NCBI GenBank assembly: GCA_019240125.1 | Contig: JAFAYW010000042.1 | Coordinates: 1-64,000 of the forward strand | Source: Alphaproteobacteria bacterium | GTDB taxonomy: Bacteria; Pseudomonadota; Alphaproteobacteria; ATCC43930; CGMCC-115725 | Length of the DNA stretch: 64,000 bases | Reading direction: 5' to 3' | Shown: piece by piece, positions 13,170 through 41,570 of the stretch | Layout: each line of letters opens with the position of its first letter | How positions within the stretch are numbered: the first letter of the stretch is position 1 | Position numbers and translations under genes: made by a program | The notes under the pieces: generated by a model | Seen by the model: the letters and a program-made list of their open reading frames with translations, nothing else | What the model was told of the DNA's origin: nothing | Databases searched by the model: none

Positions 13170-14204
13170 TTAGTCTGCACCCGCGCCGCCGCAAAGATGG
13201 TCGAAGGCGGTAATCCACCCGGCGATTGCCGTCGGCCAGTCGGGTAAGCGCGCCGCCGCCCGTCGCGCGCCGGCGGCAAGACGCGCCGCCAGCCCGGGCT
13301 CCGCGATGAGACGGCGCAGCGCGTCCCCGAACGCGGCGGCATCGCCCGGCGGCACGAGCAACCCCGCGTCGGGCGGAACAATCTCCGCGACCGCCCCAGC
13401 CGTGGTCGAGACCTGCGGCAACCCCCATGCCATCGCCTCCGCCCAGGCCATACCGTAACCCTCGTGCAGGGAAGCCGAGACAAACGCGTCCGTCGCGGCA
13501 TAGGCGCCCGCGGCCTCGTCGGGCGGCTTGGCGCCAACCAGATATACGCGCGTGCCCAGATCCCGCTCGGCAATCGCCCGGCGTAGCCGCTCAGCGGCGG
13601 CTGCATCGCGATCCAGCGCGCCGATGCAGCACAGTTCCCAGTCGAGATCAGCCAGCCCCGCCAGCGCCTCGATCAGCACTCGATGGCCTTTGCGGGGTAT
13701 TATGTTCGCGACGTATAGCAGCCGCCGTACCGGGCCGCCGGCTCGCATCGGCAGCGGGTTTGGTTTGTCGGTGCCTGGCGGGGTTACCGCGATACGGTCC
13801 ACCGGCACGCCAAGTGCCGCGACCGCGGCGGCGCTCCGCTGGCTGGGGCAGAGCGCGCCGCGAAAGAGCGGCAGAAGGCGTTGCTCCAATGCTTCCGCGG
13901 CGCGCAGCTCGGACAGCGGCAGGCCATATTCCTGGCTTAGCGGATGATGCACAAAGGCGACCGCACGGCACCGCTCCGTCAACTCGGGTACGGCAGCGCT
14001 GATTGCGGGCAGCGCCGTTCCGTCGATGGCGACCGGCAGGCCAGGCGGCAAGGCCGCGATTTCACGTGAAACATCGCCGGCGGTTTCGAGGATGACGACC
14101 TCGCGCCCGGCATCGCGGAGACCGCCGACGATACGGCGATTGAAGAGCTGGCCTCCCGTGAGATCAGTCAGTCGGCCTTCGACGACAAAGGCCAGACGCC
14201 TCAC
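13170..14204 (-). CDS. glycosyltransferase family 4 protein
   Basis: RRLLYVANIIPRKGHRVLIEAL, ASLHEGYGMAWAEAMAWGLPQVST. Confidence 0.88.
   Translation of the reverse strand: MRRLAFVVEGRLTDLTGGQLFNRRIVGGLRDAGREVVILETAGDVSREIAALPPGLPVAIDGTALPAISAAVPELTERCRAVAFVHHPLSQEYGLPLSELRAAEALEQRLLPLFRGALCPSQRSAAAVAALGVPVDRIAVTPPGTDKPNPLPMRAGGPVRRLLYVANIIPRKGHRVLIEALAGLADLDWELCCIGALDRDAAAAERLRRAIAERDLGTRVYLVGAKPPDEAAGAYAATDAFVSASLHEGYGMAWAEAMAWGLPQVSTTAGAVAEIVPPDAGLLVPPGDAAAFGDALRRLIAEPGLAARLAAGARRAAARLPDWPTAIAGWITAFDHLCGGAGAD
14058..14073. promoter_or_regulatory. parS-like palindrome inside the glycosyltransferase CDS
   Basis: GATTTCACGTGAAACA, 14/16 match to TGTTTCACGTGAAACA with a 12-bp perfect palindromic core. 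Confidence 0.55.
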
Positions 14205-27712: not shown

Positions 27713-28314
27713 CGCGCCAGCACCTTGCGGTCCCGCAGGAAACCCAGAAGCTCGACCAATGGCAGCCCCAGAATGGCGAAATAATCGCCTGAAATCCGCT
27801 CGAACAGCTGCACGCCCCTCCCTTCGAGCCGGTAGCTACCGACTGAACCCAGCAGCGCGTCTCCTTCCGCTGCCACGTAGGTTTCAACAAAGGAATCACT
27901 AAAGTCCCGCATCGTCAATTCAGGGAGGCTATGCGCCTGCCAGAGAGTTCGGCCGGCTCTGACGACGCAGGCGGCGGTCGCCAGCTGGTGCGTCCGACCG
28001 CGCAGCAATCGCAGCTGGCCGCGAGCCGCTTCCAGGTCACGCGGCTTGTCAAACCAGCATGTGTCCGTTGCGAGAAGCTGGTCGGCGCCAATCACCAGCG
28101 CGCCCGGATGCAGCCGCGACACCGCCGACGCTTTCGCCACGGCGAGCAGTTCGACGCAGGTCACGGGCGAATCACCGCGCCTCAACGCCTCGCGCTTCAC
28201 GGCGTCTTCATCAAAGGCTGACGGGACGATTGTGAAGTCGAGACCCGCGCCTGCGAGGAGTGCCGCCCGTGCCGTACTCGCCGAGGCGAGGATCAGCCGC
28301 TCATTGCTCGGCAC
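27709..28314 (-). CDS. maf: Maf-like nucleotide pyrophosphatase
   Basis: LILASASTARAALLAGAGL, VIGADQLL, YRLEGRGVQLFERISGDYFAILGLPL. Confidence 0.94.
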   Translation of the reverse strand: MPSNERLILASASTARAALLAGAGLDFTIVPSAFDEDAVKREALRRGDSPVTCVELLAVAKASAVSRLHPGALVIGADQLLATDTCWFDKPRDLEAARGQLRLLRGRTHQLATAACVVRAGRTLWQAHSLPELTMRDFSDSFVETYVAAEGDALLGSVGSYRLEGRGVQLFERISGDYFAILGLPLVELLGFLRDRKVLAR

Positions 28315-29125
28315 CGGCCCGCCGCATGTAAAGCCGATAGATCGACGCCGCGGTCTCTTCGATCGAGCGGCGCGTCACATCGATGACCGGCCACTTCCGC
28401 TCGGCGAATACCCGCCGGGCCTCACGTACCTCGGCCTGTACCGCCTCGGTATCGGTGTAATCGGTTGCCTCGTTATGATCGAGCATGCTGAGACGGTTAC
28501 GCCTGAGGTGGATCAGCCGCTCCGGCTCATTGGTCAGTCCCACAATCAGCGGTTTTTCCGCCGCCATCAACTCGGCGGGCAACGCGACACCCGGAACAAA
28601 CGGCACGTTCGCCGCCTTGATCCCGCGATTGGCGAGATAGAGGCAGGTCGGGGTCTTGGAGGTGCGTGAGACGCCGACCAGACACACATCCGCGTCGTGG
28701 ATGCCCCATGGCGACTGGCCGTCATCGTGGTTGATCGCAAAGGTCATCGCATCGATGCGCGCGAAATATTCGCTGTCGAGAAGATGCTGCTTGCCAGGCA
28801 ACCCGCGGCTTTGCCGACCGAGATGTGAGGTCAGTGCACTGATGACCGGGTCGAGCACCGGAATTGCCGGTACCTGCAATCGTCGGCAGCCCTCCTGCAA
28901 CGCCTGCCGCAACGACTCGTTGACCATCGTGAACAGCACAAGCCCGCCATTAGTCTCGATCCCGGCCAGAACCCGATCGATCTGACTGAGCGTCCGCACC
29001 ATGCTCCAGACATGCTCGATAGCCTGAACCTCATCAAACTGGACGAGGCAAGCACGCGCAACGGAATGCACGGTATCTCCGGTTGAATCCGACACTAGGT
29101 GCAGGTGAAAGCGGTTGACGGTCAC
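28301..29125 (-). CDS. ppsR: pyruvate, phosphate dikinase regulatory protein (kinase/phosphorylase)
   Basis: VNRFHLHLVSDSTGDTVHSVARA, DVCLVGVSRTSKTPTCLYLANRGIKAANVPFVPG; GTG start. Confidence 0.93.
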   Translation of the reverse strand: MTVNRFHLHLVSDSTGDTVHSVARACLVQFDEVQAIEHVWSMVRTLSQIDRVLAGIETNGGLVLFTMVNESLRQALQEGCRRLQVPAIPVLDPVISALTSHLGRQSRGLPGKQHLLDSEYFARIDAMTFAINHDDGQSPWGIHDADVCLVGVSRTSKTPTCLYLANRGIKAANVPFVPGVALPAELMAAEKPLIVGLTNEPERLIHLRRNRLSMLDHNEATDYTDTEAVQAEVREARRVFAERKWPVIDVTRRSIEETAASIYRLYMRRAGAEQ

Positions 29126-29545
29126 CTGGCGCTCACACGCGACTGCGACGCCCGGTCTCCGCACGCAGAGCTGTGGATGGTTCTCAGCCTAATGCGCATA
29201 AATTCCGTCTTTTCCAGAGGGAGGCAAGAACGATACCCGAGTTTCGCGCAAGCGGCTGCGGCTTATTCGCTGTTGAACAACCCCGCCGCGTCACCCGGCA
29301 AAGCCGGGGATCATGGTTCATCCCGAACTTCGCCGACGCTTATACACACCACCGGTGCTCCCAACTTGCTGATATTTCACACCATATCACCATTCTCGAC
29401 GGGTCGGGACAATTCAGCGGCAAACGAGATGGCGGGGGACAAATCGCGGATAAGTTGGGGATGCTTGCCAATCCCCGGGATGCACAGCCATTCTCTACAA
29501 CTACATCCCTTATCTAGATTCTCTTAAAAGGAAGAAGGGCGGGCC
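29126..29545. other. candidate chromosomal origin of replication (oriC)
   Basis: Intergenic between ppsR (RP001-type) and hemE. Perfect DnaA box TTATACACA at 29340-29348; TGCGCATAA at 29193-29201 (8/9 on minus); TGTGGATGG 29172-29180, TTATTCGCT 29263-29271 and CGCGGATAA 29445-29453 (7/9 each); flanking genes diverge. Confidence 0.8.
29340..29348 (+). promoter_or_regulatory. DnaA box TTATACACA
   Basis: Exact match to TTATNCACA. Confidence 0.8.
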
Positions 29546-30580
29546 ATGGCTGGGGAGCCTTTGAAGCCCATTTTGGCGGCCCTCAGCGGGCAGACCTTGT
29601 CACGCCCGCCCTGGTGGCTCATGCGGCAGGCCGGACGCTACCTACCCGAATATCGGGCGCTGCGGGCCAACGCGGCTAATTTCATCGAGTTCTGTCTGAC
29701 GCCGACGCTGGCAGCCGAAGTGACTCTGCAGCCGATCCGCCGCTTTGGCATGGATGCGGCGATCCTCTTCGCCGATATCCTGTTGATTCCCCGTGCCCTG
29801 GGGCAAAGCGTGGAGTTTCGCGAAGGCGGCCCGGTGCTTGAGCCGATCTCTCCAGACAAGGGATTGCGGCATCTGCGACTGGAGGGGCTGAGCGCGCTGG
29901 ATCCGGTGTACGAGACGATCGCGCGGGTGCGTCGTGAACTGCCCGCCAGGACCACCCTGATCGGCTTTGCCGGCGCCCCTTGGACCGTAGCGACGTATAT
30001 GGTGGAAGGTGGCGGCAGCCGAGATTATCCCGCGGCCAAGGGGTGGGCCTATCGCGACCCCGACGGTTTTGCCGCGCTGCTTGACCTGATCAGCGAGGCA
30101 ACGGTGAGATACCTTGCGCGCCAGATCGAAGCTGGCGCGGAGGTCATCCAGCTTTTTGACAGCTGGGCGGGTGTTTTACCTGAGCCCCTGTTTGGGCGCT
30201 GCGTGATCGGGCCGACGCGCAGCATCGTGCAACAACTGAAACAGCACTTTCCCGCGACGCCCATCATCGGGTTCCCGCGCGGGGCGGGCCCGCGATATGA
30301 GCGCTATGCTGATGAAACCGGAGTTGACGCGGTGGCTCTGGACACCGTGGTTCCCCTTGAGATGGCGCGCGACCGGTTACAAAGCCGCGTGGCGGTGCAG
30401 GGCAATCTCGACCCGATCGCGTTGCTGACCGGCGGGTCGGCGCTCGAGGCGGCGGTGGTGCGTATCCGCGGAGCGCTGGGTTCCGGTCCGCTCGTCTTCA
30501 ATCTGGGTCATGGCGTATTGCCGCAGACACCGCCGGAGCATGTCGCAAGACTTGCCCAGTTGCTGACCGAACCGATCTGA
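29546..30580 (+). CDS. hemE: uroporphyrinogen decarboxylase
   Basis: PPWWLMRQAGRYLPEYRALR; GFAGAPWTVATYMVEGGGS; NLGHGVLPQTPPEHV. Confidence 0.97.
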   Translation: MAGEPLKPILAALSGQTLSRPPWWLMRQAGRYLPEYRALRANAANFIEFCLTPTLAAEVTLQPIRRFGMDAAILFADILLIPRALGQSVEFREGGPVLEPISPDKGLRHLRLEGLSALDPVYETIARVRRELPARTTLIGFAGAPWTVATYMVEGGGSRDYPAAKGWAYRDPDGFAALLDLISEATVRYLARQIEAGAEVIQLFDSWAGVLPEPLFGRCVIGPTRSIVQQLKQHFPATPIIGFPRGAGPRYERYADETGVDAVALDTVVPLEMARDRLQSRVAVQGNLDPIALLTGGSALEAAVVRIRGALGSGPLVFNLGHGVLPQTPPEHVARLAQLLTEPI

Positions 30581-39010: not shown

Positions 39011-39026
39011 TGTTTCACGTGAAACA
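39011..39026. promoter_or_regulatory. parS: parS site
   Basis: TGTTTCACGTGAAACA, perfect 16-bp palindrome matching the consensus parS, in the mnmE-mnmG intergenic region. Confidence 0.93.
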
Positions 39027-40966: not shown

Positions 40967-41570
40967 CCCTGCGGGGTTCGCCGCCGCCACGGGTGTTTCA
41001 CGTGAAACGCTGCAGCGGCTGGACGCCTACGCTGCGTTGCTGCGGCAATGGGCGCCGCGCATCAATCTGGTCGGCGCCAACACCATCGATGATCTGTGGA
41101 ACCGGCATTTTCTCGATTCGGCGCAACTCCACGCCCTGATCCCGCCGACTGTCGGCAGTCTCATCGATCTCGGCAGCGGCGCCGGCTTTCCGGGCTTGGT
41201 GTTGGCGATCCTCGGTGTCCCAAACGTCGAACTGGTCGAGAGTGACGCGCGCAAATGTGCTTTCCTGCGCGAGGCCGCACGGGTCGCTGCGGTGCCGGTG
41301 ACGATACGCACGGCGCGAATCGAAACCGTGCCGCCGCACGCGGTAGACGTTGTGACGGCGCGCGCCTGTGCCTCGCTCGACCAACTTCTACAATGGAGTC
41401 AATTGTTTATCGGACCTCATACACTCTGTCTCTTCCCAAAAGGAGAGCACGCGGCGCATGAAGTGACGACGGCTGAGCGCGACTGGTCGATGCAGGTAAC
41501 GCAACATCCCAGCCGGAGCGATCCGCGGGGGGTCATCCTATGTCTGCAGCATGTGAGGCGGCGTGACTGA
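40947..41570 (+). CDS. rsmG: 16S rRNA (guanine(527)-N(7))-methyltransferase RsmG; start codon unresolved (CTG 40947 candidate)
   Basis: In-frame [34 protein letters not shown] precedes or includes the first TTG at 41037; [15 protein letters not shown]. Confidence 0.9.
40994..41009. promoter_or_regulatory. parS: parS site inside the rsmG N-terminal coding sequence
   Basis: TGTTTCACGTGAAACG, 15/16 to consensus with perfect GTTTCACGTGAAAC core; encodes VSRET. Confidence 0.88.

Follow-up and report, generated by a model that had tools for sequence, protein, structure and literature searches.

The window, a 64-kb stretch of DNA at the start of one contig of an alphaproteobacterial draft genome (6.27 Mb in 372 contigs), carries the gene order coaE-aroE-maf-ppsR on one side of an intergenic gap and hemE-hemH-UPF0093-rho on the other, the names coaE and rho being taken from translations (Table 1). 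A divergent pair of ppsR (COG1806) and hemE separated by an intergenic gap is a defining arrangement of Cori-type origins. A GTG at 29164 is a possible start for the ppsR open reading frame; the domain begins near 29104 and the GTG at 29125 seems the likelier start. Across 92 measured loci the gap was mostly 400-600 bp. The distance between ppsR and hemE was larger at loci L053 and L056 (1.6 kb and 3.8 kb respectively), possibly through insertions or rearranged origins. An Rfam search of the gap found no RNA family, a simple scan revealed no sigma-70-like promoter or terminator and no plasmid similarity was found. The gap has a GC content of 56% against ~64%. A first, sequence-only reading had pointed to AT-richer patches; the gap is indeed AT-richer, but its AT-richest stretch, a probable unwinding element, lies beside hemE and is not the central patch that was quoted.

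Table 1. Features of the ppsR-hemE gap and of its surroundings, with positions in the window
Feature	Position	Strand	Basis or remark
parS-like, 2 mismatches	14058-14073		genome-wide parS scan
ppsR (COG1806, Kinase-PPPase; formerly DUF299, RP001-type)	28301-29125	-	PF03618 E=4e-94 and ORF list
Proposed oriC, ppsR-hemE gap	29126-29545		flanking genes, box enrichment in orthologous gaps, KOPS switch, parS
7/9 box CCATCCACA inside GCTGTGGAT	29172-29180	-	8-mer context enriched in family gaps
8/9 DnaA box TTATGCGCA, ppsR-proximal	29193-29201	-	sequence match
Perfect DnaA box TTATACACA	29340-29348	+	129 bp upstream of tandem pair
IHF-like site, 1 mismatch, TATCAGCAAGTTG	29362-29374	-	single-genome match
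Weak DnaA-box-like sites in inverted orientation, TTATCCGCG and GCATCCCCA	29445-29464	-	just upstream of tandem pair
DnaA-box-like site 1 of tandem pair, CAATCCCCG, alphaproteobacterial AATCCCCG form	29469-29477	+	blind profile, AATCCCCGNNNTNCACAG uniqueness
DnaA-box-like site 2, GGATGCACA	29478-29486	+	abuts site 1; blind profile, AATCCCCGNNNTNCACAG uniqueness
AT-richest stretch of gap (64% AT)	29486-29535		beside hemE, reaches hemE ribosome-binding site
Spacer, then trio-like tract with CTACAACTA (CNA units) at 29495-29503	29487-29506	+	class-wide 3-nt periodicity
GANTC (GATTC) site between tract and hemE	29517-29521		GANTC in this part in 18/26 family gaps
hemE, uroporphyrinogen decarboxylase	29546-30580	+	PF01208 E=5e-111
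parS, perfect, TGTTTCACGTGAAACA	39011-39026		just after mnmE
parS, 1 mismatch	40994-41009		genome-wide parS scan

The perfect DnaA box and the 8/9 box named in the sequence-only reading were both found, the latter on the minus strand, but its count of three 7/9 boxes was too low: the gap holds nine such matches, and matches of this grade carry little information. TTATNCACA occurs 35 times in the 6.27 Mb genome against 44 times for a reversed control; it is not enriched genome-wide and therefore only ~0.002 copies are expected by chance per 420 bp. Enrichment was assessed in orthologous gaps taken from the 92 loci, with dinucleotide shuffles as controls. Boxes with at most one mismatch numbered 63 in 26 family gaps (5.3 in shuffles) and 181 in 64 class gaps (20 in shuffles), so that DnaA-box-like sites are ~10-fold enriched in the ppsR-hemE gap at both levels. 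A cluster of DnaA sites above chance is a further mark of Cori-type origins. Within the family TTATCCCCA was observed 10 times against 0.08 in shuffles, so a form of the box with C in place of A is in use in the lineage as well.

A 38-column profile was learned from 77 gaps, with the window and its genus excluded; its consensus reads tAATCCCCGtTaTCCACAGggctacAcaAccaaccacc. Applied blind to both strands of the 64-kb window the profile scored 24.3 bits at 29469-29506, where the sequence is CAATCCCCGGGATGCACAGCCATTCTCTACAACTACAT, and the next best match reached 9.4 bits. All of 19 non-redundant gaps outside the training set scored 15.2-23.0 bits on the 19 box columns, against a shuffle 95th percentile of 9.3. 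The most conserved element of the gap is 29469-29506, and it had been overlooked at first. The view that few strong boxes suggest a lineage-specific layout was right in spirit, but weak boxes (G- and W-boxes) are the rule in the Caulobacter origin too (PMC4468827) and the boxes chosen were not the best conserved. The element consists of the pair CAATCCCCG-GGATGCACA followed by CTACAACTACAT, the end of which falls where the gap is richest in AT; CAATCCCCG matches the TTATCCCCR form at seven of nine positions and GGATGCACA matches TTATNCACA equally well. The arrangement resembles the basal unwinding system (BUS), which combines tandem DnaA boxes with DnaA-trios. Tandem DnaA boxes of this kind are present at 29469-29486, and the pair is kept class-wide. 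The box-pair pattern AATCCCCGNNNTNCACAG has a single copy in the genome, at this gap; the exact pattern is not class-specific by itself, the single copy in 7 of 11 other genomes having no hemE or ppsR match in its 3-kb locus. Counted from the module, recurrent inverted boxes stand at -24/-25 and -13 across the class. Family gaps have recurrent plus-strand boxes at -66 to -69 and at about -119 to -138, the central box of the window sitting at -129, and recurrent inverted boxes 276-306 bp upstream. With the 38-bp signature the likely site of opening can be marked in alphaproteobacterial origins, and oriC can be located in fragmented genomes, where skew is not computable.

The tract that follows the boxes was analysed by anchoring on the box columns only and taking the next 40 nt in 99 origins. 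Runs of CNA had a mean of 2.22 against 1.19 (z=22), and NTN runs were not enriched in the same 40-nt stretch (z=0.2). It is also apparent that in the class repeat, CNA (3'-GNT-5'), conservation falls on C and A, the middle base being free. The published DnaA-trio rule is 3'-NAN-5' (consensus 3'-GAT-5'), with a minimum of three units no more than 16 bp from the box (PMC8287927), and 3'-NAN-5' reads as NTN on the hemE-sense strand. The window does not follow this rule, its only NTN run of three lying at offset 31, near 29518, and its own tract is short, with three CNA units; for both reasons the module is described as BUS-like and is not classed as a BUS. The tract at 29487-29506 is proposed as the start of strand opening. 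In some lineages the tract is partly explained by ATCCAC weak-box repeats, and an alternative that we consider unlikely, though the most serious of those weighed, is that the tract represents degenerate extra DnaA boxes of this sort, or hemE promoter sequence, with the CNA pattern as a by-product. Several origins do read ATCCACAG-GC-ATCCACT-ATCCACTAC, the independent set gives a signal at lag 7 and the run in the window has three units only. However, the class tract shows periodicity at lag 3 (z 11) and lag 6 (z 8), long CTACTACTAC/CAACAACAACTAC runs stand right after the boxes, and upstream of the boxes a control stretch had neither CNA nor NTN runs (z 0.6).

The DnaA of this genome (G000:C313:34623-36110) offers a possible counterpart to the three-base repeat. 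In Bacillus DnaA the middle base of the trio is read by Asn187 (PMC10721633). Alignment to structure 8btg placed Tyr237 at this position, and the dinucleotide-pocket residues N187, I190, I193, R202 and E228 correspond to Tyr, Ile, Leu, Lys and Glu; the pocket is retained in outline, with a different residue as middle-base reader. All 30 alphaproteobacterial DnaAs compared have Tyr or Phe at the Asn187 position. The free middle base may be linked to this substitution; inside the class the residue hardly varies, which leaves little covariation to look for. A tentative proposal, to which we give slightly less than an even chance, is that Alphaproteobacteria open their origins by a variant of the BUS in which a AATCCCCG-type anchor box is followed by 3'-GNT-5' trios, the middle base of which goes unread because DnaA has Tyr or Phe and not Asn. 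Together with the AATCCCCG form of the box, the relaxed trio looks like a class-level variant, and the conserved C and A, the free middle base and the altered reader in DnaA depart from the published trio rule in a way that is open to testing.

Opening could instead take place at the centre of the same origin, in the AT-rich patch near box 29340, with the hemE-proximal module acting as a mere DnaA loading or timing site. The perfect box and the composition of the patch (29366-29400, ~50% AT) would suit this reading, but it is quite improbable. The most conserved and also the most AT-rich part of the gap is 29469-29535, the central box shifts among relatives (-68 or -119 to -138), and a trinucleotide tract behind tandem boxes is the known geometry of an opening site (PMC8287927).

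That the gap is the chromosome replication origin is supported by evidence from beyond the gap itself. The whole 6.27 Mb draft has only two parS sites that deviate at one position or fewer, and both are in the window (39011 and 40994), 10-12 kb from the gap; the site at 14058-14073, which lies across the origin at a distance of ~15 kb, is a possible third. Skew around the full circle is not computable for this genome because the draft is in 372 contigs with 6.5% contamination. The GC-skew check that had been suggested was run in two complete genomes of the same taxonomic order (G037 and G038), and agreed only loosely with a switch at hemE: the skew was weak and its best split lay 10% of the circle off. 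Denser sampling of G038 placed a local cumulative-skew minimum at ~5.575 Mb, 39 kb from hemE. This genome also has two parS 12-15 kb beyond hemE. As GC skew alone was too weak, the polarity of KOPS (GGGNAGGG) was used, with twenty 20-kb samples per chromosome. In G038 the counts were 46:17 downstream of hemE and 15:33 upstream, and in G037 they were 27:5 and 8:30. The contrast peaks at rotation 0-1 of 20, which puts the switch at hemE or within ~5% of the circle. A switch of strand polarity and nearby parS sites are further marks of Cori-type origins, the switch having been found in the two relatives and the parS sites in the draft itself; KOPS within the 64-kb window are uninformative, there being too few sites.

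Other candidate locations fared poorly. The dnaA locus was rejected as the origin, since no box within one mismatch of the consensus occurs in the 9.3 kb at the end of the dnaA-dnaN-recF-gyrB contig. Pairs of perfect boxes on contigs C249, C63, C307 and C2 are isolated, 72-1125 bp apart, and none is in a larger cluster; those on the first three are in or beside ordinary genes. DnaA is known as a transcription factor in alphaproteobacteria, and the module lies directly upstream of hemE, with the GANTC and the ribosome-binding site immediately after it. Even so, a reading in which the conserved boxes let DnaA regulate hemE (and ppsR), with the origin elsewhere, for example at dnaA, is scarcely tenable against the KOPS switch at hemE, the adjoining parS cluster, the box-free dnaA contig and the experimental mapping of the Caulobacter origin to the same boundary genes (PMC1914354). 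The proposal of the sequence-only reading that oriC lies between ppsR and hemE is supported by the parS sites, the KOPS switch in relatives, the box enrichment, the blind profile and the lack of boxes at dnaA.

Methylation offers one possible level of control of the origin. The GATTC noted earlier at 29517 was found; a single GANTC in 381 bp is by itself unremarkable for this gap. The window as a whole holds 104 GANTC against 266 in shuffles, a 2.5-fold depletion of the kind expected in genomes with CcrM, and a RAMA-domain protein (CcrM-type) is present in the genome (G000:C4:10116). GANTC is denser in the origin gaps of relatives (4.4-10/kb vs 1.6/kb), and these gaps are rich in it beside hemE. 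In Hyphomicrobiales-type origins (L064, L066, L067, L069, L073, L077 and L078) the last 100 bp before hemE have GANTC-rich AGAGTCTAAGAATCAGAATC, not CTACTAC, past the tandem boxes, as if methylation sites stood in place of the three-base repeat.

The best explanation of the whole, which we hold to be very probable, is that the gap is an origin in which DnaA acts on weak boxes, the strands open at the tract and ParB/parS effects segregation. Position, conservation, uniqueness and parS were computed here, and polarity in relatives; from the sequence we infer the binding of DnaA, the direction in which its oligomer grows and the site of opening. DnaA would bind scattered weak boxes: inverted copies towards ppsR, a plus-strand box of consensus sequence in mid-gap and the tandem CAATCCCCG-GGATGCACA by hemE. 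An ATP-DnaA oligomer would then grow rightward from the tandem pair onto the three-base tract CTACAACTACAT and open the AT-rich stretch up to the start of hemE, where helicase would be loaded. ParB at the parS sites 10-12 kb away would segregate the new origins.

The location of the origin was already known or expected, and the wider interest lies in the class-level variant of the opening element. The gap resembles the Cori of Caulobacter crescentus in its hemE-COG1806 pair, its few and weak DnaA sites and its AT-rich part (PMC1914354, PMC4468827). Cori, however, has five CtrA sites (PMC1914354, PMC4468827) and T-to-G substituted G-boxes, whereas the gap has TTATACACA/AATCCCCG forms and no CtrA site (TTAA-N7-TTAA) with at most one mismatch. 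CtrA sites are present in Caulobacter and absent from most other oris, and are hence not class-defining (PMC4468827). The origins of Rickettsia, Wolbachia and Ehrlichia share the hemE boundary and an intergenic gap of ~400 bp (PMC1914354), but the sites that served to define them, in genomes of higher AT content, were those of CtrA, IHF and DnaA, and the gap of the window is without CtrA sites. The BUS of Bacillus subtilis differs in that the first box of the window is of the AATCCCCG form, that the alphaproteobacterial tract keeps the C and A of CNA with a free middle base, which is reported to be conserved in Bacillus, and that the tract of the window falls short of the three 3'-NAN-5' units that the published rule requires within 16 bp. 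With the BUS and its predicted relatives the module shares abutting tandem DnaA boxes and, to the same side of them, a short spacer and a trinucleotide tract, all within an AT-rich stretch.
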